Source: Deltaproteobacteria bacterium (lineage in GTDB: Bacteria; Desulfobacterota; Binatia; UBA9968; JAJDTQ01). Taken from it: 64,000 nt of DNA. Under the pieces are notes generated by a model. The model was not told where the DNA came from and made no database searches. It worked only from the letters and a program-made list of their open reading frames with translations. Below, piece by piece: positions 453 to 17,646 of the stretch. The stretch covers positions 1-64,000 of the forward strand of contig JAPPNF010000006.1 in assembly GCA_028818755.1 (NCBI GenBank), given 5' to 3'. Position numbers and translations under genes: made by a program. How positions within the stretch are numbered: position 1 is the first letter of the stretch; every line of letters begins with the position of its first letter.

Positions 453-612
453 TGTCCTGTACGGTTAATTCGCATGGTAAGATGCGCTGGATTTTTTGTC
501 GTCGGCAAGGCGCGATGACGAGCAGTGGCGGGTACCACGCGAGGAAGAGCAACGCCGCCGACGGCGAAAAAGACAAGCAGATTACCATGCGAATTAACCG
601 GACAGGACACTA
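450..612. mobile_element. MITE-like element with 30-bp terminal inverted repeats
   Basis: Positions 451-480 and 582-611 are inverted repeats matching at 29 of 30 bases, starting AGTGTCCTGT. They bracket about 100 bp with no convincing ORF. A TA dinucleotide sits at each outer edge (450-451 and 611-612), as expected of IS630/Tc1-mariner-type insertions. The left end touches the purH stop codon and the right end lies three bases before the purD ATG. The element could fold into a long hairpin in a purH-purD transcript. The length and lack of a transposase suggest a non-autonomous element; no parental element is visible here. Confidence 0.7.
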
Positions 613-614
613 AC

Positions 615-1886
615 ATGAACATCCTCGTGGTCGGCGGCGGCGGGCGGGAACACGCGCTGGTCTGGAAGCTGCGGCAGAGCCCGCGGGTGGACAAGCTCTA
701 CTGCGCGCCGGGCAACGCCGGCATGCGTGAGCAGGCGGAGTTGGTGGACATCGCCGCCGGCGAGATCGACAAGCTCGCGGACTTCGCCGCCCGGGAGGGC
801 ATCGACCTCACCCTGGTAGGACCGGAGCAGCCGCTGGTGGCGGGCATCGCCGACCGGTTCGAAGAGAGGGGCCTCAAGGTGTTCGGACCCAGCCGTGAAG
901 CCGCGAGGCTCGAGGGCAGCAAGGCCTTCGCCAAGGAGCTGATGCTGGAGAACGGCATCCCCACCGCGGCCTGCGAAGTGTTCTCGGACCTGGACGAGGC
1001 CCGCCGGTACGTGGCGCAAGACCGGCCCTGCGCGGTCAAGGCGGACGGCCTCGCGGCCGGCAAGGGCGTGATACTGTGCCCGGGCAGGGCCGAGGCCGAA
1101 GCCGCCCTCGACGACATCATGGCGCGAAGGGTGTTCGGCGCGGCCGGTGACCAGGTGGTCATCGAGGAACTGCTGGTGGGCGAGGAAGCCTCCTTCATGG
1201 CCCTCATGGACGGCGACGACTTCCTTCCGCTGGCGACGGCCCAGGACCACAAGCGCATCTTCGACGGCGACGAAGGGCCCAACACCGGCGGCATGGGCGC
1301 CTACTCGCCGGCACCGGTGGTGGACGCGGCGGTGCACGACGCCGTGGTCGAGCAAGTGCTCAAACCGCTGGCGGCGGGGCTCAAGCGCCGCGGCCTGGTG
1401 TATCGCGGCGTGCTTTACGCCGGGCTCATGATCACCGAGGACGGCCCCAAGGTGCTGGAGTTCAACGCCCGCTTCGGCGACCCCGAGTGCCAGCCCATCA
1501 TGATGCGCCTTGAGAGCGATCTGCCGTCGCTGCTCCTGGCCACCGCCGAGGGAAGGCTCCGGGAGATGGAAGCGGAGTGGACGGATCGGGCGGCGGTGTG
1601 CGTCGTGCTGGCGTCCGGCGGCTATCCGGGAGAGTATGGAACCGGTATGGAAATAGAGGGGCTGGAGGCCCTCGATTCCTGGAACAATGGATACGCGTTT
1701 CACGCCGGGACGAAACGTGAGGGCGGCCGGTGGCTCACCGCCGGCGGCCGGGTGCTGGGCGTCACCGCGCTGGGCGACACCATCGCCTCGGCCACCCGCG
1801 AGGCCTATGAAGGCGTGGGCAGGATCAACTGGGACGGCATGCACTACCGCCGGGACATCGCCCGACGCGCCATGGACCGAGGTTGA
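615..1886 (+). CDS. purD: Phosphoribosylamine-glycine ligase PurD
   Basis: PurD joins glycine to phosphoribosylamine using ATP, the second step of de novo purine synthesis, in the cytoplasm. At 423 residues it has the normal family length. The N-terminal nucleotide-binding motif VVGGGGREHALVWKL begins at residue 5. The ATP-grasp part contains VKADGLAAGKGV and the loop HKRIFDGDEGPNTGGMGAYSP, and EFNARFGDPECQ carries metal-binding residues. The frame is open further upstream through the MITE, but the ATG at 615 begins exactly at the conserved N-terminus, so it is chosen. Confidence 0.96.
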   Translation: MNILVVGGGGREHALVWKLRQSPRVDKLYCAPGNAGMREQAELVDIAAGEIDKLADFAAREGIDLTLVGPEQPLVAGIADRFEERGLKVFGPSREAARLEGSKAFAKELMLENGIPTAACEVFSDLDEARRYVAQDRPCAVKADGLAAGKGVILCPGRAEAEAALDDIMARRVFGAAGDQVVIEELLVGEEASFMALMDGDDFLPLATAQDHKRIFDGDEGPNTGGMGAYSPAPVVDAAVHDAVVEQVLKPLAAGLKRRGLVYRGVLYAGLMITEDGPKVLEFNARFGDPECQPIMMRLESDLPSLLLATAEGRLREMEAEWTDRAAVCVVLASGGYPGEYGTGMEIEGLEALDSWNNGYAFHAGTKREGGRWLTAGGRVLGVTALGDTIASATREAYEGVGRINWDGMHYRRDIARRAMDRG

Positions 1887-1890
1887 ACCG

Positions 1891-2028
1891 GGCGTCCTTC
1901 GACTTCGCTCCGCTGGCGCTACGCTCAGGACGAACGGTTGGAGCCGCCTGGGTCCGGGACGAACGGCTGATACAATCGGTCCCGTTCGTCCTGAGCGTAG
2001 CGCCAGCGGAGCGAAGTCGAAGGACGCC
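1891..2028. repeat. 47-bp perfect inverted repeat between purD and purE
   Basis: The arms at 1891-1937 and 1982-2028 are perfect reverse complements over 47 bp, separated by 44 bp. The inner half contains GCGCTACGCTCAGGACGAAC. A shorter, diverged single arm occurs at 17770-17820 and a degenerate one at 58114-58152, so this is a dispersed family rather than a one-off hairpin. It occupies almost the whole purD-purE gap and could form a strong stem-loop in the transcript. Confidence 0.85.
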
Positions 2029-2081
2029 ATTGCCAAGACCACCGAGCAAGAGCAGACACCGAACAAAGGAGGAAGAAAACC

Positions 2082-2594
2082 GTGACGGAGCAGACTCCCA
2101 AGGTCGCAATTCTCATGGGCAGCGATTCCGACGTGGAGGTCATGAAGGAGGCCGCGACGCGGCTGGAATCCTTCGACATCCCCTACGAGATGCACATCTC
2201 GTCCGCGCACCGATCACCGGAACGGACCCATGCCTATGCCAAGGGGGCGGCGGACCGGGGCATCGAGGCGTTCATCGTCGGCGCCGGCGCAGCCGCGCAC
2301 CTGGCCGGGGTGGTGGCGGCGGTCACCACGCTGCCGGTGATCGGCGTGCCGCTGAGCGCGTCGGCGCTGGACGGCATGGACGCGCTGCTGGCGACGGTGC
2401 AGATGCCGGCGGGCGTGCCCGTGGCCACCATGGCCATCGGCAAGGGCGGCGCCGCCAACGCCGGCATCTTCGCGGCCCAGATCATCGCGCGAAAGGACCC
2501 GGAGCTGGCCGGCAAGCTCGCCCGCTTCAAGGAAGAGCTGGCGGCCGGAGTCGAAGCCAGAGACCGGAAGCTGCAGGACAGCCTGAAGGGATAG
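2082..2594 (+). CDS. purE: N5-carboxyaminoimidazole ribonucleotide mutase PurE (class I)
   Basis: PurE class I converts N5-CAIR to CAIR in purine synthesis. The 170 residues match the family length. The N-terminal loop [10 protein letters not shown], the substrate loop [10 protein letters not shown] and the [14 protein letters not shown] and [15 protein letters not shown] segments are all present. The start is GTG at 2082, supported by a strong AGGAGG ribosome site at 2070-2075. No purK was seen next to it. A 47-bp inverted repeat lies between it and purD. Confidence 0.96.
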
Positions 2595-3921: not shown

Positions 3922-3987
3922 GAGAGAGGACCGGAACACCCGCCGGCACCCTCGGTCCCGGCAAAGGAACGCGCAAGGAACACTGTC

Positions 3988-4983
3988 ATGTCCAAGCTAA
4001 ATCTTACACTGGCGTGCGGCGACTACGACCGCACCAAGACGCTGCAGGACGGCTCGCTCAGCCCCGACGGCATCGCCCTCAACTACCTGCCGATGCAGGC
4101 CGAGGAGATCTTCTGGCGCATGGGCCACCACCAGGAGTTTCACGCCTCCGAAATGTCCCTGGCCAACTACATCACCATGACATCCCGGGGCGAAAGCCCG
4201 TTCACGGCCATCCCGGTGTTCCCGTCGCGCTATTTCCGCCACTCCTGCGTGTTCATCAACACCGACCGGGGCCTGGACAAGCCCGAGGACCTGCGCGGCA
4301 AACGCGTCGGCGTGCCGGAGTACTCCATCACCGCGGCGGTGTGGATCCGCGGCTTCCTGAGCGACGACCACGGCGTCAAGGCCGGCGACGTCGAGTGGTT
4401 CACCGGCGGCCAGGAAGTCCCCGGGCGCAAGGAACGCATCGAGCTCAGGCTGCCGCCGGAGATCAAGGTCCAGCCCATCGCCGGAGACCGGACCCTGAAC
4501 GCCATGCTGGACAAGGGCGAGATCGACGCCCTGGTCACCGCCCGCATCCCCTCGTGCTTCGCGGCCGGCGCCCCGCACATCCGCCGCCTGTTCCCCGATT
4601 TCAAGTCCGTGGAGATCGACTACTACCGGCGCACGAAGATCTTCCCCATCATGCACACCGTCTGCATCCGCAACGACGTGTTCGAGGCCAACCCCTGGGT
4701 GGCCCGGAGCCTCTACGCCGCCTTCTGCCAGTCCAAGGACGACGCCATCGCGCGCATGAACATCAACAACACCATGGCCAGCACGCTGCCCTGGCTCCAG
4801 GCCGAGATGGCGCTTCTCCGGGAGGTCTTCGGCGACGACTGGTGGCCCTACGGCATCGAGCCCAACCGCCACGTCATCGAGGCGCTGACCCGCTACATGG
4901 GCGAGCAGGGCCTGCTGGGCGACAAATTCCCCACGGTGGAAGAGTTGTTCGCGCCGACGCTGCTCGGGGATTACAGGCTGTAA
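3988..4983 (+). CDS. Substrate-binding-like protein (4,5-dihydroxyphthalate decarboxylase-like family)
   Basis: A 331-residue protein with the two-lobed periplasmic-binding-protein fold of the NMT1/4,5-dihydroxyphthalate decarboxylase-like group. Family features include LTLACGDYDRTKTLQDG at the N-terminus, MSLANYI, PVFPSRYFRHSCVFIN, DLRGKRVGVPEYSITAAVWIRG and the late RHVIEALTRYMGEQGL. No signal peptide is visible, so a cytoplasmic location, enzymatic or binding, is more likely than export. There are no transporter genes beside it. Substrate unknown; such proteins are often annotated by similarity to phthalate catabolism without proof. Confidence 0.75.
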   Translation: MSKLNLTLACGDYDRTKTLQDGSLSPDGIALNYLPMQAEEIFWRMGHHQEFHASEMSLANYITMTSRGESPFTAIPVFPSRYFRHSCVFINTDRGLDKPEDLRGKRVGVPEYSITAAVWIRGFLSDDHGVKAGDVEWFTGGQEVPGRKERIELRLPPEIKVQPIAGDRTLNAMLDKGEIDALVTARIPSCFAAGAPHIRRLFPDFKSVEIDYYRRTKIFPIMHTVCIRNDVFEANPWVARSLYAAFCQSKDDAIARMNINNTMASTLPWLQAEMALLREVFGDDWWPYGIEPNRHVIEALTRYMGEQGLLGDKFPTVEELFAPTLLGDYRL

Positions 4984-5008
4984 TATCCAGAACCGCGAAT
5001 CCCGTGGA

Positions 5009-5118
5009 GACGGATCCGTCATTCCCGCGAAAGCCGGGAACCGGGAAGGGAAGGGCGGGGAACCACGCCGGCGGTCACGGTGCTCTGGATTCCGGCTTTC
5101 GCCGGAATGACGGATTCA
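5009..5118. repeat. REP pair (inverted) downstream of the binding-protein gene
   Basis: Two inverted REP units, CGTCATTCCCGCGAAAGC-type at about 5017-5040 and GGATTCCGGCTTTCGCCGG-type at about 5086-5108, face each other. Relatives occur at 9330-9345, 51776-51807 and 53622-53715. The pair may act as a transcript-end hairpin for the upstream gene. Confidence 0.7.
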
Positions 5119-5135
5119 GGGACGTCAGTAAAAAC

Positions 5136-5555
5136 ATGACCCGCAAGGAAGCGGCGTTCATCCGTCAGGCCCGGGTAGGGATCTTGGCGACGGTCGACGA
5201 GCACGGTCAGCCCCTTAACGTGCCCTTCTGCTTCGCCTTCGACGGCGCGTGCCTGTACTCACCTATCGACGAGAAGCCCAAGGCCGCAGGGCCACGGGAG
5301 CTGAAGCGGATCCGCAACATCCGCGCCAACCCCCGGGTATCCGTGGTCGTCCAACGCTACGACGACGAGGACTGGTCCCGCTTGGCTCACATCATCATCC
5401 ACGGCGAAGCCAGAATCCTCACGGATGGAGATACCCACGGCAAGGCCGTCCGGCTGTTGCGCCGGAAATACTCCCAGTACCGCACCATGGCCCTGGATCA
5501 ACGGCCCGTCATTCAGATTCGGGTTGTCCGTTGCATTCGTTGGGGCAGGGTCTGA
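5136..5555 (+). CDS. PPOX-class split-barrel flavin/F420-binding protein
   Basis: A 139-residue protein of the pyridoxamine 5'-phosphate oxidase-like split-barrel fold, closest by eye to the Rv0121-type probable F420-dependent group. Diagnostic segments are FIRQARVGILATVDEHGQPLNVPFCFAFDG, ELKRIRNIRANPRVSVVVQRYDDEDWS and IIIHGEARIL. The reading frame is open far upstream, but the ATG at 5136 starts exactly where the family begins. The cofactor (FMN or F420) cannot be decided from the sequence. It follows a REP pair, so it is probably transcribed separately from the gene upstream. Confidence 0.75.
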   Translation: MTRKEAAFIRQARVGILATVDEHGQPLNVPFCFAFDGACLYSPIDEKPKAAGPRELKRIRNIRANPRVSVVVQRYDDEDWSRLAHIIIHGEARILTDGDTHGKAVRLLRRKYSQYRTMALDQRPVIQIRVVRCIRWGRV

Positions 5556-5590
5556 CGACGGGTTCAAGGCGCGCTCAGTTGCTTTGCTAG

Positions 5591-5619
5591 TTGGCTACCA
5601 CTCAAATGAGTGGTAGAAT
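5591..5619 (+). promoter_or_regulatory. lexA promoter with overlapping palindromic operator
   Basis: A -35 box TTGGCT (5591-5596) and a -10 box TAGAAT (5614-5619) are spaced by exactly 17 bp. The spacer is filled by a perfect palindrome at 5595-5616, with arms CTACCACTCA and TGAGTGGTAG separated by AA. A repressor bound there would block RNA polymerase. The position just before a LexA-type gene argues for autoregulation. The motif differs from the CTGT-N8-ACAG and GAAC-N4-GTTC LexA boxes. Confidence 0.7.
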
Positions 5620-5626
5620 AACCAGT

Positions 5627-6265
5627 ATGGAAGAGCTGACCGGCATACAGGTCCGTGTCCTTGACGCCTTGCGAGGGCGCGCCGACACAGGACAAGCACT
5701 TCCCAGCTATCGGGCACTCTGCGCAGAGTTCGGGTGGTCCTCCACGGGAACTGCCAGGGATCATCTGCGTGCCTTGGAGCGCAAGGGTTACGTCGACCTC
5801 CCAGGCAGCCGAGGCCGTCGGGTTAGATTGCGTCGCCGGTTTCCCGGGATCGCCCGTGCACCCATCGTTGGCCGCATTGCAGCGGGCAAGCCGGTGTTGG
5901 CGGACCAATACCACGACGACCTGCTTCCGTTTCCGGCGGAATGGCGCGGCTCCGGCGACTGTTTCGCGCTGCGGGTGGCGGGAGACAGCATGGAAGGCGC
6001 GGGGATTCTGGAAGGGGACCATGTGATCATCCGACAACAAGAAATCGCTGACAACGGCGACATCGTTGCAGCGACTCTCGGTGGAGAGACGACGCTCAAA
6101 CGCTTGGTCAAGGACGGCGACCGGACTTTCCTGGTCGCGGAGAATCCCCGCTACGCACCCATCGAGGTCACGACGGATTCAGCCGTGGTCCACGGCGTCG
6201 TCGTCGGACTGTTGCGTTCGTACCGACTCCACGATAGTAGGAGCCCGTTTCCTGGCAACCGCTAG
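5627..6265 (+). CDS. lexA: LexA-type self-cleaving repressor
   Basis: A 212-residue transcriptional repressor with an N-terminal winged helix (about 1-70) and a C-terminal S24 peptidase domain. Expected autoproteolysis residues are present: cleavage site Ala86-Gly87 in GRIAAGKP, nucleophile Ser121 in AGDSMEG, and Lys158 in TTLKRL. This implies RecA-stimulated self-cleavage after DNA damage. A TTG at 5591 would add 12 residues but overlaps the promoter, so the ATG at 5627 is chosen. It leads an operon with a radical SAM protein and TcmP and is preceded by its own palindromic operator. It may be the host's main LexA or a dedicated local copy; this window cannot decide. Confidence 0.88.
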   Translation: MEELTGIQVRVLDALRGRADTGQALPSYRALCAEFGWSSTGTARDHLRALERKGYVDLPGSRGRRVRLRRRFPGIARAPIVGRIAAGKPVLADQYHDDLLPFPAEWRGSGDCFALRVAGDSMEGAGILEGDHVIIRQQEIADNGDIVAATLGGETTLKRLVKDGDRTFLVAENPRYAPIEVTTDSAVVHGVVVGLLRSYRLHDSRSPFPGNR

Positions 6266-6289
6266 TGTCCGCGGGAGGCACACCACACC

Positions 6290-7342
6290 ATGCTCACAGC
6301 ACGCAGAGCGTCCAAGTTCATTCGTCGCTTCGGCGGCCCTGGAGACGATTCCGGCATCGTATGCTTCAAGTTCTGGCAACTGGTGCCGGCGGGAGGTTGT
6401 CCCTACCGTTGCTCCTATTGCTTCCTCCAGACCACCCCATGGTTTCGCTTCAACCCCGATCACCTCAACGGGCTGGTCTACACCAACGTCGACGACATGC
6501 TTCGAGAAGTCGACGCTTGGCTCGAAGATCCCGTCGCGAAAATGATGATCGTTGGTGAACTGCAGGATGGCCTCGTCTTCGAGACGGCGTTCAAGAAGGT
6601 GACTGGGAAGCCCCTCACTCATTGGATCGTTCCGAAGTTCGCCGCGCAGGCCCGGCATCGCCTCATCTTCCTGACGAAGTCCACGCAGGTACACGACGCC
6701 CTGCAACTCGATGCCACACCCCAGGTCGTCTTCTCCTGGTCGGTGAACGCCGAGGAGGTCGCCGCCCGGTGGGAACATGGAACCCCGCCTCCATCCCAGC
6801 GCTTCGCGGCGGCGTCCGCGATGAAGGACGCTGGCTGGCCTGTCCGCTTTCGGCTGGACCCTATGGTGCCCTATCCGCGTTGGCGGTCCGGATACGGCGC
6901 AGCAATCCGGGAGATCAACCGCATTGCGCCTGAGATGCTCACATTGGGCGCTCTTCGTGCCACCTCAGCCAAGTCTCTACGCGGTGCGGCCACCAAAAAC
7001 GGCCGTGATGACAGTATTTTCGAGTATCTGACCGAAGAACGGGACCCGTCGGGGTTCAAGTACCGAATCCCGTTCCCGGTCCAAGTGGAGCTCTTTCGTT
7101 ACGCGATCCAGAAGCTCTCCCGGTCCATCGTTCCCGCACTGTGCAAGGAGGACCAAGCCCTCTGGCGAGAACTTGGGATGCCGTTCCAGGGTTGTCACTG
7201 CCTTCTCGGGGCGTCGGACGCCCTCGTACAGAACTCGCCGAGAGAGATCCCATCGATAACCGGCAACAGCGCGAACTCCCGCCGACCGCAGACGATGCCT
7301 GGCACCACGGCCGGGCGTACTTCGCTCACTTCGGTACCGTAA
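6290..7342 (+). CDS. Spore-photoproduct-lyase-like radical SAM protein
   Basis: A 350-residue radical SAM protein of the SPL/COG1533 type. The cluster-binding CxxxCxxC is at Cys37, Cys41 and Cys44 (GGCPYRCSYCF). It is followed by the family-like VGELQDGLVFE and RLIFLTKST segments, and a C-terminal GCHCLLG supplies further cysteines. SPL enzymes repair a thymine dimer by radical chemistry, but related proteins have other roles. The gene starts 24 bp after lexA and is followed by tcmP; pairing of Cys-motif radical SAM proteins with TcmP is an established genomic association. A LexA-regulated DNA repair or modification role is an inference. Confidence 0.75.
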   Translation: MLTARRASKFIRRFGGPGDDSGIVCFKFWQLVPAGGCPYRCSYCFLQTTPWFRFNPDHLNGLVYTNVDDMLREVDAWLEDPVAKMMIVGELQDGLVFETAFKKVTGKPLTHWIVPKFAAQARHRLIFLTKSTQVHDALQLDATPQVVFSWSVNAEEVAARWEHGTPPPSQRFAAASAMKDAGWPVRFRLDPMVPYPRWRSGYGAAIREINRIAPEMLTLGALRATSAKSLRGAATKNGRDDSIFEYLTEERDPSGFKYRIPFPVQVELFRYAIQKLSRSIVPALCKEDQALWRELGMPFQGCHCLLGASDALVQNSPREIPSITGNSANSRRPQTMPGTTAGRTSLTSVP

Positions 7343-7359
7343 CGCCCGGGCACAACACC

Positions 7360-8526
7360 ATGAGGGAAGTCTCTTACTACAGCGGGCGAGAGCAAACCTA
7401 CCTAAAGCATTTCTTTTTGGAAAAATACCTGGAACGAGTCGCGTACGTAATCGGGTATAACCAGTCGGAGTTTGTTTACATCGATGGGTTTTCAGGACCC
7501 TGGAGGTCCGCGGATGAGGCGTTTGAGGACACGTCGTTTGTCGTTGCCATCAACATTCTTCGGAGGGTCCGGGATGGGCTGGCGAGCGGAGGCAAGCGCC
7601 CACGAATTCGCTGTCTGTTCATCGAGAAAGACCCTCAGGCCTTTGCCGCGCTTCAAGACGCTGTTGGGCGCTTCCCCGACCTTGATGTCACGCCACTAAA
7701 CGGCGACTTCGAAACACTCATACCCACGATCCTACGCTATATCCGCAATTCGTTTTCTCTGGTCTTCATCGACCCGACGGGATGGACGGGGTTTGGGCTG
7801 CGAAAGATCGAACCGATTCTGAAGCACCGCCCTGGCGAAGTCCTCATCAACTTCATGTTCGACTACATTAATCGATTTCTGGATCATCCCGATGACCGAA
7901 TTACCGCAAGCTTCGACGATCTCTTCGGTGGGCCGGGCTGGGATTCAGCCGTGTACGCGGATGACCGCAGAGAGAACGCAATCCTTGAACTCTACTGTGA
8001 CCGCATGCGCGGCTTGGGGAGGTTCGAACATGTCGCGCGTACGCGCATTCTCAAGCCGACCTCGGACCGATCCTACTTCTACCTCGTTTACGGAACACGC
8101 CACGTAAAGGGCCTTCGCGAGTTTCGCGGCATCGAGAAGAAGGTCATCGAGGAACAGGAGCGCGTACGTTCAACCGCCAAGCAGACACACCGTGTAGCGC
8201 GTACGGGGCAGTCGGAGTTGTTTGCCGCGGCCACACTCACCGGGGCGGCCTCCTACGAACAGGAACGCCAAGTGCAATTGTCCGCCGCGTCGGAGAAGTT
8301 GCTCACACTACTGCGCGACGGGCGGCAAATAGAATACGAAAACGCACTTGCCGCGCTACTGGAGCGGCCTTACGTCTGGGAAAGTGACGTCAAGGCGCTC
8401 GTTCAGGAGCTACGCAGAGCCGGTCAACTGAAGATCGTGGGAATGAAACCACGAGAACGAACCCCTAAAGAGGGGCACGTCCTTGTGCCTCCGGCGACCG
8501 ACGCGCCAGCAAGGCAACCCCGCTAA
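7360..8526 (+). CDS. tcmP: Three-Cys-motif partner protein TcmP
   Basis: A 388-residue protein of the three-Cys-motif partner (TcmP) family. The N-terminal YSGREQTYLKHFFLEKYL is followed by a Rossmann, methyltransferase-like core: FVYIDGFSGPW, CLFIEKDP, LNGDFETLIP, then VFIDPTGWTGFG in the position of a motif IV DPPY/NPPY loop. The C-terminal part (after about residue 290) resembles a winged helix. The frame is open upstream into the radical SAM gene; the ATG at 7360 is the first good in-frame start after that gene stops, though no clear ribosome site is seen. It ends two bases before the convergent glutathione transferase. Biochemical function unknown. Confidence 0.8.
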   Translation: MREVSYYSGREQTYLKHFFLEKYLERVAYVIGYNQSEFVYIDGFSGPWRSADEAFEDTSFVVAINILRRVRDGLASGGKRPRIRCLFIEKDPQAFAALQDAVGRFPDLDVTPLNGDFETLIPTILRYIRNSFSLVFIDPTGWTGFGLRKIEPILKHRPGEVLINFMFDYINRFLDHPDDRITASFDDLFGGPGWDSAVYADDRRENAILELYCDRMRGLGRFEHVARTRILKPTSDRSYFYLVYGTRHVKGLREFRGIEKKVIEEQERVRSTAKQTHRVARTGQSELFAAATLTGAASYEQERQVQLSAASEKLLTLLRDGRQIEYENALAALLERPYVWESDVKALVQELRRAGQLKIVGMKPRERTPKEGHVLVPPATDAPARQPR

Positions 8527-12436: not shown

Positions 12437-12679
12437 ATGAAAGTACAAGACCTGACCCCAGCCGCAATCGGCGCCGTCGTGCGCGCTACACGGAAGGCCG
12501 CGGGCCTGCGACAGTACGAGCTCGCGGGCGCCGCGGGCGTCGGCGTACGCTTCATCGTCGATCTCGAAGCAGGCAAGCCCAGCGCACAGATTGGGAAAAC
12601 CCTCCAGGTGCTGGCGGCTCTCGGGTGCTCTTTGGACATCTCCACGCCACCACAAGACAAGGGAAGGCGGAACCCGTGA
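12437..12679 (+). CDS. hipB: HipB-like antitoxin/repressor
   Basis: An 80-residue XRE-type helix-turn-helix protein. The HTH spans about residues 12-65 (IGAVVRATRKAAGLRQYELAGAAGVGVRFIVDLEAGK). HipB binds operator palindromes and holds HipA in an inactive complex; here three matching palindromes stand directly upstream. Its stop codon overlaps the hipA GTG in a 4-base GTGA junction, implying translational coupling. Length and arrangement are typical of chromosomal hipBA loci. Confidence 0.85.
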   Translation: MKVQDLTPAAIGAVVRATRKAAGLRQYELAGAAGVGVRFIVDLEAGKPSAQIGKTLQVLAALGCSLDISTPPQDKGRRNP

Positions 12680-13935
12680 CCCGCACCCTCAACGTTTGGT
12701 GGGATCGGCGGCTCGTCGGCCGGCTCACGCAGGACCGGCACGGCGAGCTTGGGTTCGTGTACGCGGACACATGGATTGAGCAGGAAGATGCGCCGACCCT
12801 GTCCGCCTCATTGCCCAAACGAGCGGAGCCGTATCGCCGTCGTGAATGCCGCCCGTTTTTCGGCGGCCTTCTGCCGGAGGAAGGCCAGCGGCACGCTGCC
12901 GCACGAGCCGTCGGCGTTTCCCCCGCCAACGACTTCGCCCTGCTCGACAAGCTCGGCGGCGATGTGGCGGGCGCGTTGCAAATACTTCCTCCCGAAGCAA
13001 CGCCGACCACGCCTGACCGGGCGCCAACGCCACGGTTGCTCGACGACGCCGGCCTGATCCGTGTGCTCGATGCGCTGCCCACGCGCCCACTGCTTGCGGG
13101 TGAAGAGGGGCTGCGGTTGTCCCTCGCCGGCTCTCAGTCGAAAGTACCCGTGGTCGTGGTCGAAGGCGCGGTAGCGTTGCCATCGTCCGGACAACCGACC
13201 ACACACATCCTCAAGCCGTCCATCGCGCGATTTCCCGGCACCACCGAGAATGAAGCCTTTGTCATGCGCCTCGCGGCCGCGGCCGGACTTGACGTCGCCC
13301 CCGTCGAACCCCGGGTGGTAAGCGACCGGAGGTTTCTGCTTGTGGAACGTTATGACCGGTCGTTCGATCCCGCCGGGCAGATTCGCCGTATCCATCAGGA
13401 AGACTTCTGCCAAGCCCTCGCCGTCAACCCGGAACGCAAGTACCCGGGCGAAGGAGGCCCAACCTTCAGCGATTGCTTCGGGCTGCTCCGTCAGGTTTGT
13501 GTGCGGCCGGCGGTGGAAGTCCTGAAACTGCTCGACGCCGTGGTCTTCAATCTGCTCGTGGGCAACGCCGATGCCCACGGCAAGAACTTCTCGGTTCTGT
13601 ATGACGAAGGCGGCCCGTGCCTGGCGCCGCTTTACGATCTCTTGGCCACGGTCGCCTATCCTGAACTCTCACCCAACCTGGCCATGAAAATCGGGGGAGC
13701 CGCGACGCTGGGCGACATGGATCCCAAGGCATGGGCGGCGTTCGCGGGGGACGCAACTCTCGGCCTTCCCTTGGTCCGCCGTCGCGTCACGGAAATCAGC
13801 GAAGCCGTCAAGGAGCAGGCAAACGAGGTTGCGCGCACGCTGATTCAGCCGGGGCTTGATGAGGAGATCCTGTCAAGGATCGTCGAGTTGGTTGTCGGAC
13901 GCGCCGAACGGTGTGCGCGGACAGTTCGACCGTGA
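12676..13935 (+). CDS. hipA: HipA-like serine/threonine kinase toxin
   Basis: A 419-residue protein of the HipA kinase family, whose E. coli member phosphorylates glutamyl-tRNA synthetase and induces dormancy. The N-terminal domain has VWWDRRLVGRLTQDRHGELGFVY and FFGGLLPEE. The kinase core shows SLAGSQSKVPVVV in the flexible serine loop, THILKPS, the phosphate-binding ENEAFVMRLA stretch and the catalytic NLLVGNADAHGKNFS with its Asp. The start is GTG at 12676, overlapping hipB. All core residues are present, so it is probably active; the target is unknown. Confidence 0.87.
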   Translation: MTRTLNVWWDRRLVGRLTQDRHGELGFVYADTWIEQEDAPTLSASLPKRAEPYRRRECRPFFGGLLPEEGQRHAAARAVGVSPANDFALLDKLGGDVAGALQILPPEATPTTPDRAPTPRLLDDAGLIRVLDALPTRPLLAGEEGLRLSLAGSQSKVPVVVVEGAVALPSSGQPTTHILKPSIARFPGTTENEAFVMRLAAAAGLDVAPVEPRVVSDRRFLLVERYDRSFDPAGQIRRIHQEDFCQALAVNPERKYPGEGGPTFSDCFGLLRQVCVRPAVEVLKLLDAVVFNLLVGNADAHGKNFSVLYDEGGPCLAPLYDLLATVAYPELSPNLAMKIGGAATLGDMDPKAWAAFAGDATLGLPLVRRRVTEISEAVKEQANEVARTLIQPGLDEEILSRIVELVVGRAERCARTVRP

Positions 13936-14220: not shown

Positions 14221-14688
14221 CTACGGCGTGCACTTCACAAGAGTGACCTGGCCCGTGGCCTGATCGTAGGTGGCGACTCCGGTATCGTCGGCGCAGCCTT
14301 CCGTGACCGTGGCGGTCACCACAAAGGTGGCATCGTCGGCTTCGGTGACGGCGGGGGTGATGTTCGCGCTCTGCGTGTAGCCGAAGGCCGTCAGATCGTC
14401 AGGGTCGTCGGCGTAGGTGTTGTTTTCCAGGTAGTAACCTTCCTGGGCCAGAGCCATGTTCCGGACGTTGGCCTGGGCATCGGCGTCGAAGCCCTTGCGC
14501 CGATAGCCTCCGAACTGCGGGATCGCCACCGACGCCAGGATTCCAATGATGGCAATGACCACCAGCAGCTCGATCAGGGTGAACCCGGCCGCCTTTTCGC
14601 GGCCGTGGCGATCAGGCGGCCGCATGCCCGCCTGATGCGTTCCCACAGGGCTTCTCTTCGTTCCTCTTGCCAGGACATCCGTATCCAT
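14221..14688 (-). CDS. Type IV pilin/pseudopilin-like protein
   Basis: A 155-residue prepilin. After a long basic leader comes GFTLIELLVVIAIIGILASVAIPQF, the class III signal cleaved between Gly and Phe by prepilin peptidase, with Glu5 present. The globular part has two Cys (in EGCADD and VKCTP) that could form the C-terminal disulfide loop of type IV pilins. AGGAGG lies 7 bp before the ATG at 14688; an internal ATG would give a shorter leader. It is last in a pilB-pilC-pilin operon on the minus strand and is probably the fibre subunit. PilA-like pilin and GspG-like pseudopilin are both possible. Confidence 0.82.
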   Translation of the reverse strand: MDTDVLARGTKRSPVGTHQAGMRPPDRHGREKAAGFTLIELLVVIAIIGILASVAIPQFGGYRRKGFDADAQANVRNMALAQEGYYLENNTYADDPDDLTAFGYTQSANITPAVTEADDATFVVTATVTEGCADDTGVATYDQATGQVTLVKCTP

Positions 14689-14699
14689 CCGAATCCTCC

Positions 14700-15920
14700 T
14701 CACTGCACCATGCCGCCCATCTGAAAGATCGGCAGATACATGGAGATCACGATCCCTCCGAGCACGACCCCCAGGACAATCATCAGCACCGGCTCCATGA
14801 GCGTGGTCAGCCGCGCCACCGCCCGGTCCACTTCCTCCTCGTAGAACGCCGCCACCCGGCTGAGCATCGTGTCGAGGGCGCCGATGCTTTCTCCCACGGC
14901 GACCATGTGGCAGACCAGGGCCGGGAACAGGCCGGTGGCCTCCAGCAGCTCGGACAGGGTCATGCCCTTCTCCAGCCCGGCCCGGGTCTCCAGGACGGCC
15001 TGCTCCAGGACCTTGTTGCCGGTGGTGCCGGCGGTGACGGTCAGGCTGTCCAGCAGCACCACGCCGGACTGGAGCAGAAGGCCGGTGTTGTGGCTGAAAC
15101 GGGCGATGGCCGCCTTGCGCAGCAGGTCTCCGACGAGCGGCAGCCTCAGCAGCCATCGGTGGACCGCCCGCCGGCCTCCCTCGGTACGGCAGGCCAGATG
15201 AACCGCCACGGGCGCGGCCAGGCCGCCGCCGAGAAAAAACAGGAAATGCTCGTACGTCCAGCGGCTCACCGCGATGGTCAACTCCGTCAGGGGAGGGAGG
15301 GCCTGCCCCATGCCCCGGTAGACTTCCGCGAAGACCGGGATCACGTGGAGGAGAAGCACGGCCACAACCACCACGGCCACGGCGATGACGGTGGCGGGAT
15401 AGAGCATGGCGGTCTTGACCTTGCGCTTGAGCCGCGCCGAACGCTCGATGAACAGCGCCAGTCGCGCGAGGATCTCCGGCAGCACGCCGCCGTGCTCGCC
15501 GGCAGCCACCATGCGTACGAACAGCGTGTCGAACAGCCGGGGGTGGCGGGACATGGCCGCGGTCAGCGTCATGCCGTTGGACACATCGAGGCGCACGGCC
15601 CGAAGCGCTTCTCTTACCGTGCCGTTGCCGGTCTGGTCGGCGAGCACCTGGAGGCACTCGACGATGGGGACGCCGGCCTCGATCATGACGCCGAAGTTCC
15701 GCGTCAGCATGACGATGTCGTCGGCGCCGACCCTGGGCGCGAGCCCCGGGATGACGATCTCCCGGCGCATCCCCGCGCCCTTTTCCCGAATCCCCGACGC
15801 CAGCGGCCGGATCCCGCGCCGGCGAAGCTCGGCCGTCACCGCGGCGCGGTCCACCGCCTCCATCTCGCCCCGCAGGAGCCTGCCATCACGGTTCCTGCCT
15901 TGCCACCGGTAGAGCGCCAC
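14700..15920 (-). CDS. pilC: Type IV pilus/type II secretion inner-membrane platform protein
   Basis: A 406-residue PilC/GspF protein. Two T2SSF domains are visible, with MLTRNFGVMIEAGVPIVECL near residue 70 and the repeat RFSHNTGLLLQSGVVLLDSL near residue 270. Hydrophobic helices lie at about 170-195, 220-240 and 370-395. It forms the inner-membrane base that the ATPase drives. The stop of the upstream ATPase gene is only four bases away, and the pilin follows 11 bp downstream, so the three genes form one operon. Confidence 0.9.
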   Translation of the reverse strand: MALYRWQGRNRDGRLLRGEMEAVDRAAVTAELRRRGIRPLASGIREKGAGMRREIVIPGLAPRVGADDIVMLTRNFGVMIEAGVPIVECLQVLADQTGNGTVREALRAVRLDVSNGMTLTAAMSRHPRLFDTLFVRMVAAGEHGGVLPEILARLALFIERSARLKRKVKTAMLYPATVIAVAVVVVAVLLLHVIPVFAEVYRGMGQALPPLTELTIAVSRWTYEHFLFFLGGGLAAPVAVHLACRTEGGRRAVHRWLLRLPLVGDLLRKAAIARFSHNTGLLLQSGVVLLDSLTVTAGTTGNKVLEQAVLETRAGLEKGMTLSELLEATGLFPALVCHMVAVGESIGALDTMLSRVAAFYEEEVDRAVARLTTLMEPVLMIVLGVVLGGIVISMYLPIFQMGGMVQ

Positions 15921-15924
15921 GGGA

Positions 15925-17646
15925 TCACCCAGCTCGAACCGGCGCGGGGGGAACGGCCCGTGCCTCGGCCGGGTCCGGTTCCGTCACCCGCAACGCCTCC
16001 TCGACGCTGGTGACCCCTTGCCGGACCTTCCGCACGGCGGCCTGACGCAGCGTGCGCATCCCCCTCTCCATGGCCGCGGCCTTGAGCTCGACGACGGAGC
16101 CGCCCCGGAGAATCATCCCGCGGAGATCATCGCTCAGCGTCATGACCTCGTAGATGGCCACGCGGCCGCGGTAGCCGGTGTGGTGACATTCGGGACACCC
16201 GGCGCCGTGGTAGCCCTCGACGTCGCCCACTTCCTGCGCCCCGCGGCGCGGGGCCGTGAGCATTCCGGGCTGCAACGCGGTGCGCACCTTGCAGGCTTCG
16301 CACACGCGGCGCAGCAGCCGCTGCGCCGCCACCATGGTGATGGCCGAAGCGATGAGGTAGGGCTCCACCCCCATGTCGAGCAGGCGGTGGACGCTGGACG
16401 GCGCGTCGTTGGTGTGGAGGGTTGTCAACACCAGGTGTCCGGTCAGGGCGGCATTGACGGCGATGCGGGCGGTCTCGGCGTCGCGGATCTCGCCCACCAT
16501 GAGGATGTCCGGGTCCTGTCGCAGGAACGCCCGGAGGCAGGCGGCGAAGGAGAGGCCTATCTCGCCGTGGGTCTGAACTTGGTTGATGCCGGCGAGGTGG
16601 TACTCCACCGGGTCTTCCGCGGTCGAGATGTTTACTCCCGGCCGGTTGAGCTCCGACAGCATGCCGTAGAGGGTCGTGGACTTGCCGCTCCCGGTGGGTC
16701 CCGTAAGCAGGATCATGCCCGCGGGCTTGCTCATGGCTTCGGCGAAACATTCCCGATCCACGCCTTCCAGGCCCAACCGGTCGAGGCTCGTCGCCAGGTC
16801 GGAGCGGTGCAGCAGCCGCAGCACCGCCTTCTCTCCGAACCGCGTCGGCAACACCGAAACCCGCACGTCGACTTCGCCGCCGCCCGCCGCCAGCTTCAGG
16901 CGGCCGTCCTGGGGCAACCGGTGCTCGGCGATGTCCAGACCCGCCATCACCTTGATGCGGGAGGTCAGCGCCTGCTTCATCTCGTGCGGCGGCGTCATGA
17001 CTTCCTGCAGGATCCCGTCGATCCTGAAGCGCACGCGCACGCTGTCCTCGTAAGGCTCGACGTGAATGTCGCTGGCGCCGCGCGCCACCGCGTCCCGCAT
17101 CAGCGAATCCACCACCGCCACCACCGGCGCATCGCCGGCGGCATCCGTCGACGACGGCTCACGCGCCCGTGGCTCCGCCGTCGAAGGGGCCGTTTCCCTC
17201 GTCTCTTCGCGCCCGCGGCCCGACGAGCCGGAACGTTGCTCCAGGACCTGCCGGATGGCGGACGGGCGCGCCACATAGGTTCTCACGTCGTGCCCGGTCA
17301 TGAACCGGACCTCGTCGATGGCGCCGAGATCCGTGGGGTCGCTCACGGCCACGTCCAGCACCGAGCCCGCGCGGGCGAACGGGAGCAGGCCGCGCTTCTC
17401 CAACAGCGACAAGGGCAGCAGGCCGAAGGCGGCATCGTCGACCTCGGACGGCTTCGGACTCACCTCCTCCAGGCCGAAACGCTCGGCCACGAACGCCGTC
17501 AACCGGCCCTCATCCGTGGCGCCATCCTGAACCAGCGCCGCTACCAGGCTGCCGCCGTCGCGCCGCCGGATCGCCTCCGCCCGGTCTCGCGCCTCGCGCG
17601 TGACCACGCCGGCCCGCACCATCAGATCGCCCAGAGAGAGTTCCAT
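15925..17646 (-). CDS. pilB: Pilus assembly/type II secretion ATPase
   Basis: A 573-residue hexameric ATPase of the PilB/GspE family. The N-terminal T2SSE domain is followed by a Ser/Arg-rich linker near residues 150-180 and the motor core: Walker A GPTGSGKSTTLYG, Asp box AEDPVE, Walker B DILMVGEIRDAETA and His box. A four-Cys zinc motif comes at CEACK and CPECHHTGYRGRVAIYEV. It starts the pilB-pilC-pilin operon. The presence of only these genes means peptidase, secretin and alignment genes lie elsewhere. Confidence 0.92.
   Translation of the reverse strand: MELSLGDLMVRAGVVTREARDRAEAIRRRDGGSLVAALVQDGATDEGRLTAFVAERFGLEEVSPKPSEVDDAAFGLLPLSLLEKRGLLPFARAGSVLDVAVSDPTDLGAIDEVRFMTGHDVRTYVARPSAIRQVLEQRSGSSGRGREETRETAPSTAEPRAREPSSTDAAGDAPVVAVVDSLMRDAVARGASDIHVEPYEDSVRVRFRIDGILQEVMTPPHEMKQALTSRIKVMAGLDIAEHRLPQDGRLKLAAGGGEVDVRVSVLPTRFGEKAVLRLLHRSDLATSLDRLGLEGVDRECFAEAMSKPAGMILLTGPTGSGKSTTLYGMLSELNRPGVNISTAEDPVEYHLAGINQVQTHGEIGLSFAACLRAFLRQDPDILMVGEIRDAETARIAVNAALTGHLVLTTLHTNDAPSSVHRLLDMGVEPYLIASAITMVAAQRLLRRVCEACKVRTALQPGMLTAPRRGAQEVGDVEGYHGAGCPECHHTGYRGRVAIYEVMTLSDDLRGMILRGGSVVELKAAAMERGMRTLRQAAVRKVRQGVTSVEEALRVTEPDPAEARAVPPAPVRAG

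Follow-up and report, generated by a model that had tools for sequence, protein, structure and literature searches.

Radical S-adenosylmethionine (radical SAM) genes of the splB type (COG1533) are reported to be LexA controlled in alpha- and beta-Proteobacteria and in Bacteroidetes (PMC3323433, PMC8565304), and SplB-like genes are reported together with ImuB-C (PMC3765255). Spore photoproduct lyase (SPL) has a radical relay which requires Cys140 and Tyr98, while the C. acetobutylicum enzyme uses a cysteine located elsewhere (PMC5368176). The protein TcmP, annotated in many genomes without a function, appears in the literature found only within lists. Here we describe an operon in which lexA, an SPL-like radical SAM gene and tcmP follow one another, located at positions 5591–8526 of a 64,000 nucleotide stretch of a Deltaproteobacteria genome (contig JAPPNF010000006.1), in the following called the window. 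Judging from gene order and operators, the radical SAM-TcmP pair is repeatedly under LexA control, and membership in the SOS response to damage is very probable. A TcmP system regulated by LexA was not described in any of the literature searched, most subscription journals being outside the reach of that search.

The lexA operon and its operator

The three genes are all on the plus strand: lexA (5627–6265, 212 amino acids), the SPL-like radical SAM gene (6290–7342, 350 amino acids) and tcmP (7360–8526, 388 amino acids). A first, sequence-only reading of this DNA had proposed a self-regulated operon of three genes without a gap between them; gene order, shared strand and operator-promoter agree with this, and the genes do adjoin, except that they are separated by 24 bp (lexA to radical SAM gene) and 17 bp (radical SAM gene to tcmP). 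The TTG at 5591 which that reading took as the lexA start is the -35 hexamer, the true start being the ATG at 5627. A sigma-70-type scan of the plus strand gives TTGGCT (5591–5596) as -35 and TAGAAT (5614–5619) as -10, the latter also evident from the sequence, with 9 of 12 matching positions, a 17 bp spacer and a TG ahead of the -10; this is one of three promoter-like matches in the region, where 0.8 were expected. As the -10 hexamer ends only 7 nt ahead of the ATG, the transcript is probably leaderless.

Between the two hexamers lies the predicted LexA operator, CTACCACTCA-AA-TGAGTGGTAG (5595–5616), a perfect 10+2+10 palindrome of 22 bp which ends 10 nt upstream of the lexA ATG and is unique in the 4.9 Mb genome even when three mismatches are allowed. 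Perfect palindromes with 10 bp arms are too common in the window (eight, some nested, against 1.9 expected) for the palindrome to be accepted by itself as evidence of an operator, so that its weight rests on position and conservation. The related locus L022 carries CTACCACTCATTTGTGTGGTAG, i.e. CTACCACTCA-TT-TGTGTGGTAG, 10 nt ahead of its lexA start, with the same spacing as in the window. In genome G148 a search with a related pattern returned a single site, the L022 operator at lexA, and in G142 ACCATACAAATGTATGGT is found once, between a TTGACA and the -10 of lexA. A putative autoregulatory operator within the promoter of lexA itself, as had been claimed, is accordingly a conserved feature of sequence.

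LexA has a TIGR00498 score of 165.6 bits (cut-off 111), a winged helix (PF01726) and an S24 peptidase domain (PF00717). Its self-cleavage residues had been read as intact, and alignments recover the Ala86-Gly87 site and the Ser121/Lys158 dyad. The source genome also has recA and a second LexA (contig C60), which heads imuA/imuB-like genes and whose promoter carries TACCAGAC-TTTT-GTCTGGTA. The pattern ACCASWC-N4-GWSTGGT covers both operators and, in the 4.9 Mb genome, has no exact match outside these two lexA promoters. A looser search with two mismatches was discarded as noise (142 matches against 349 in the reversed control). In the recA promoter region of this genome neither of the two kinds of lexA operator, ACCA-N10-TGGT included, is present, so a classical recA regulon is shown for neither LexA. 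A scan of viral contigs with the window operator returned one match, judged to be due to chance; it lies 3' of a gene on an AT-rich phage contig (L207) which carries no gene for LexA, TcmP or a radical SAM protein.

The radical SAM protein and TcmP

The radical SAM protein matches PF20903 (62 bits) and has SPL as the best match of its predicted model (Z 16.8, 245 residues, root mean square deviation 3.5), its profile also being nearest to SPL. Scores against the SPL equivalogs are below the curated cut-offs (TIGR04070, 72.5 against 400; TIGR03886, 24 against 437). The motif CPYRCSYC (6398–6421, plus strand; residues 37–44), which provides the C37-x3-C41-x2-C44 signature of the [4Fe-4S]/SAM site, is invariant in the alignment of relatives. 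Of the earlier description as a CxxxCxxC protein like SPL, motif and fold hold, and SPL chemistry does not, for reasons given below. As the model is weak at residues 1–62, which include the cluster region, conclusions on the N-terminus are drawn from alignments. All TcmP-linked SPL-like proteins share C37, C41 and C44, a GExxD motif, C25, C285 (in LCKE) and a C-terminal CxC; with few exceptions, the latter is absent from most relatives without TcmP. The additional cysteines suggest a second metal site.

TcmP was identified by TIGR04474 (163 bits, cut-off 53), the family which adjoins cysteine-motif radical SAM-like proteins. Its AlphaFold model (predicted local distance difference test score 80.6) has a class I methyltransferase fold and is closest to RlmJ (Z 15.9, 205 residues, root mean square deviation 3.2), the tRNA methyltransferases Trm1 and TrmR being among the further matches. 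A profile of 27 TcmP sequences recovers RlmJ among the PDB sequences (E 1.8e-4), and the alignment matches motif I, GSPLIA and the DP of motif IV. In RlmJ, K18 and D164 are catalytic (PMC3814359). The D138 of TcmP is invariant (107/107) and placed by the profile on the RlmJ DP which holds D164, and K16, invariant in 105/105, is the counterpart of K18 by position only. TcmP is therefore modelled as an RlmJ-like (m6A-type) methyltransferase. Residues 299–363 (8254–8448, plus strand) form a C-terminal winged-helix-like domain, with a match to PF22560 (GMT-wHTH) of 20 bits, below the cut-off of 27. Against PADLOC, TcmP matches PDC-M30A (60 bits, E 4e-17), and the radical SAM protein has no match, so that the DUF5131-type B component of PDC-M30/M41 is absent from the operon.

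Linkage of lexA, radical SAM gene and tcmP in other genomes

Short peptides with exact matches served to seek relatives of the radical SAM protein in about 85,000 species genomes, a procedure by which divergent members are missed and which gives a lower bound. At least five loci with a 67–79% identical protein were found (79% in one, 67–70% in the others), plus one partial (54%). Two loci repeat the order lexA-radical SAM-tcmP. In L022 the three proteins are 61%, 77% and 60% identical over the alignments to those of the window, its radical SAM protein being the 79% relative of the peptide scan found in another record; in L023 the figures are 32%, 65% and 25%, and dinB follows 2.3 kb further on. 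L024 and L026 have operons of the order dinB-tcmP-radical SAM-dnaE, whose DnaE protein scores below the curated cut-offs of both DnaE1 and DnaE2. L025 has a tcmP-radical SAM pair, and L027, at a contig end, a partial radical SAM gene followed by dnaE. As judged by these comparisons, the radical SAM gene is kept while LexA and TcmP are exchanged between loci. In L022, a second LexA gene adjoins a gene for a 411 amino acid protein without Pfam match (513–2515, minus strand); the first lexA operon is about 3 kb away, and a serine-recombinase-like gene separates the two.

TcmP proteins were sought with TIGR04474 in 345 genomes from the phylum of the window and in about 350 from that of L024 and L026, with wider regions fetched, and a TcmP tree of 107 rows was built which also includes plasmid, viral and earlier loci. 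TcmP is most often accompanied by DUF5131 and not by an SPL-like radical SAM protein: 82 rows have DUF5131 as neighbour and 13 an SPL-like radical SAM gene. For a further 11 no partner was called, several of these being at contig ends or beside another type of radical SAM gene. The SPL-partner label changes eight times on the tree, at least six of these changes being forced by well supported branches, from which it follows that partners were swapped repeatedly. In one locus (L056) TcmP and the SPL-like protein are fused in a single frame of 695 amino acids. The source genome carries a second tcmP (contig C9, 5424–7035), which overlaps a DUF5131 gene, both partner types thus coexisting.

Of 80 genomes, 6 have an S24/LexA gene at no more than 5.5 kb from tcmP, where 0.40 were expected (P 4e-6); when the genome of L023 and one of two related genomes are left out, four remain (P about 8e-4, Poisson sum). 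The clearest cases are L152, with the order lexA-DUF5131-tcmP, and L128, where lexA, a gene for 254 amino acids in the ImuA position, a gene for 106 amino acids, polB, tcmP and DUF5131 share one strand. The adjacency is present beyond the source genome, and repressor genes do occur beside tcmP.

LexA boxes in Acidobacteriota

G150 and G152 have TTGACGTTCGCTTTNNNTTCGC in common in their lexA promoters. The strict box TTGACnTTCRC-N6-TTCRC, the spacer of which may also be written TTTN3, occurs six times in the 519 kb of fetched loci and not at all in shuffles. These sites are two lexA promoters, both dinB-tcmP-radical SAM-dnaE operons, L025 with the box 13 nt upstream of the tcmP-radical SAM operon, and L152 with the box at the start of lexA-DUF5131-tcmP. 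Genome wide, G150 and G152 have exactly two strict boxes each, at lexA and at dinB-tcmP-radical SAM-dnaE; G163 has one, at lexA-DUF5131-tcmP; and G151 has two, one at tcmP-radical SAM, the other at an operon that includes a PolB-like gene, which resembles by eye the PolB of L128 and has no Pfam match. The reversed pattern used as a control gave no site. LexA boxes ahead of the pair and adjacency in several phyla both agree with the LexA control that had been proposed. A reverse-oriented GCGAA-N6-GCGAA is found within 35 bp before five DUF5131/TcmP operons (L162, L170, L195, L196, L197; P 7e-7), which as LexA sites are only suggestive, because some overlap ribosome binding sites or start codons.

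Role of the operon

On balance, we favour the interpretation that the window carries a stand-alone, LexA-autoregulated SOS operon delivering a two-enzyme module for nucleic acid processing, with the processing of damaged DNA as its likeliest role. The radical SAM protein and TcmP are regarded as partners because of their near-constant pairing and the natural fusion, and the presence of the pair under LexA boxes beside dinB, DnaE-type and family B polymerases makes damaged DNA the most likely target. In the undamaged cell LexA would occupy the palindrome in the -35/-10 spacer and so close its own promoter. Upon damage, RecA filaments would trigger the self-cleavage that the intact residues lead one to expect, with expression of the whole operon as the outcome. 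The radical SAM protein, with its SPL fold, SAM/[4Fe-4S] site and extra conserved cysteines, might then use radical chemistry to alter a base or a lesion, and TcmP, RlmJ-like and with a winged-helix-like tail, might bind the nucleic acid and methylate the same site or one beside it. While operon, operators, linkage across lineages, folds and the loss of the SPL relay are evident from sequence, damage induction, substrate and chemistry of the pair are what we infer. More tentatively, TcmP and its radical SAM partner may represent a widespread lesion-processing arm of the SOS response, for direct repair or damage marking, combining radical chemistry and methyl transfer on one site, which unrelated bacteria have repeatedly placed under LexA.

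Several observations weigh against this interpretation. An SOS link is absent at most tcmP-radical SAM loci; the window operon (5591–8526) contains no translesion polymerase gene; and several tcmP-radical SAM loci are beside restriction-modification, DarTG, toxin or phage genes. The hydrogen donor of SPL (Cys140 in Gt, 141 in Bs) is replaced, the aligned region reading GELQD in all close members, and the relay Tyr98 (Gt; 99 in Bs) after the third cluster cysteine is replaced by Phe45 in seven of seven. With this relay lost the SPL repair reaction is not directly transferable, even if the invariant Cys25 of the family might serve in place of Cys140. TcmP has DPTG in motif IV, as most TcmPs have DPxG, and not the DPPY of the RlmJ type, and as the substrate of RlmJ is rRNA, TcmP could act on RNA.

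A less likely alternative is an SOS-induced anti-phage or self-marking module, in which the pair installs or reads a DNA base modification and LexA acts as the switch upon damage by phages or nucleases. It would account for the match of TcmP+DUF5131 pairs to the PADLOC candidate systems PDC-M30A/B and PDC-M41A/B, and for the surroundings of the fusion gene (L056, 5522–10573), which include an Eco57I-type restriction-modification gene, a DarT thymidine ADP-ribosyltransferase and a macro-domain gene. An SNF2/PLD helicase adjoins L123, and in S. meliloti the locus tags of a TcmP gene and of hna, a defence gene, are two apart (PMC12445080). In L205, an IMG/VR contig, tcmP and a 43% identical SPL-like radical SAM gene (3971–6082) are located behind an endolysin gene, and the pair may therefore travel on phages; a scan of viral contigs with the radical SAM alignment (A1), P0002 and the TcmP of L024 found no relative. 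Mobile modules would also fit radical SAM proteins 65–77% identical across phyla with differing lexA and tcmP partners. However, the radical SAM protein of the window is not matched by PADLOC, several members of its close subfamily are found with translesion polymerases or lexA outside defence islands, and PDC-M30 and PDC-M41 are candidates only, not named in the literature found.

That the two enzymes alter rRNA or tRNA and change translation during the SOS response appears improbable. In both fold and profile, TcmP does match the 23S rRNA m6A enzyme RlmJ best, with Trm1 and TrmR among the further fold matches, but the fold does not fix the substrate, SPL as the nearest solved relative of the radical SAM protein acts on DNA, and the neighbouring genes are DNA polymerases. 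Less credible still is a true SPL under SOS control with TcmP as accessory: SPL is the top match in sequence and structure, and splB-like genes under LexA are reported (PMC3323433, PMC8565304), yet the TIGR04070 score is far below its cut-off and, without the Cys/Tyr relay, the protein is not a typical spore photoproduct lyase. A lexA which controls itself alone and adjoins the pair by accident would suit the absence of lexA from the vicinity of most tcmP loci, but is hardly tenable given three differently built operons from several phyla, each with a LexA-type operator, the excess of LexA/S24 genes near tcmP and the box count of exactly two in each of the genomes G150 and G152.

For the favoured damage-response operon, the linkage to LexA, by lineage-specific boxes and in operons with translesion polymerases, points to DNA damage as a trigger of the pair that can be tested and to nucleic acid as its class of substrate, and it raises the question whether PDC-M30 and PDC-M41 are repair, modification or defence systems.

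Genomic surroundings

The flanks appear ordinary by eye, with a pyridoxamine-oxidase-like gene upstream and a convergent glutathione-transferase-like gene downstream; G+C content is 65% in the flanks and falls to 57% in tcmP. Further along the window, and recognised from sequence, are a helix-turn-helix gene followed by a HipA-like kinase gene (12437–13935), resembling a HipBA-type toxin-antitoxin pair, and on the minus strand genes for a pilin, a GspF-like protein and a GspE-like ATPase (14221–17646), which may belong to a type IV pilus or type II secretion system.

Comparison with known systems

With the LexA-regulated splB-type genes the operon shares an SPL-like radical SAM protein within the SOS network; no TcmP partner is named in the passages of those reports that were consulted, whereas the subfamily described here has the C-terminal CxC and TcmP as neighbour. 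SPL itself is alike in fold and SAM/[4Fe-4S] motif, and differs in that Cys140 and Tyr98 are replaced here and four extra cysteines are conserved (C25, C285 and the C-terminal CxC). RlmJ, the 23S rRNA m6A2030 methyltransferase, shares with TcmP the fold, the order of motif I, GSP and motif IV, the catalytic Asp and, by position, the N-terminal Lys, while TcmP has DPTG for DPPY and a C-terminal winged-helix-like tail. The TcmP+DUF5131 pairs (Gp37/Gp68; PDC-M30, PDC-M41) likewise place TcmP beside a cysteine-motif radical SAM-like protein, but in the window the partner is SPL-like and LexA heads the operon. In this last respect the operon is like the lexA-imuA-imuB-dnaE2 cassettes, which are headed by LexA and self-regulated, the radical SAM gene and tcmP replacing the polymerase genes; the source genome has its own lexA-imuA-imuB-like cassette, the operator of which is related to that of the window.

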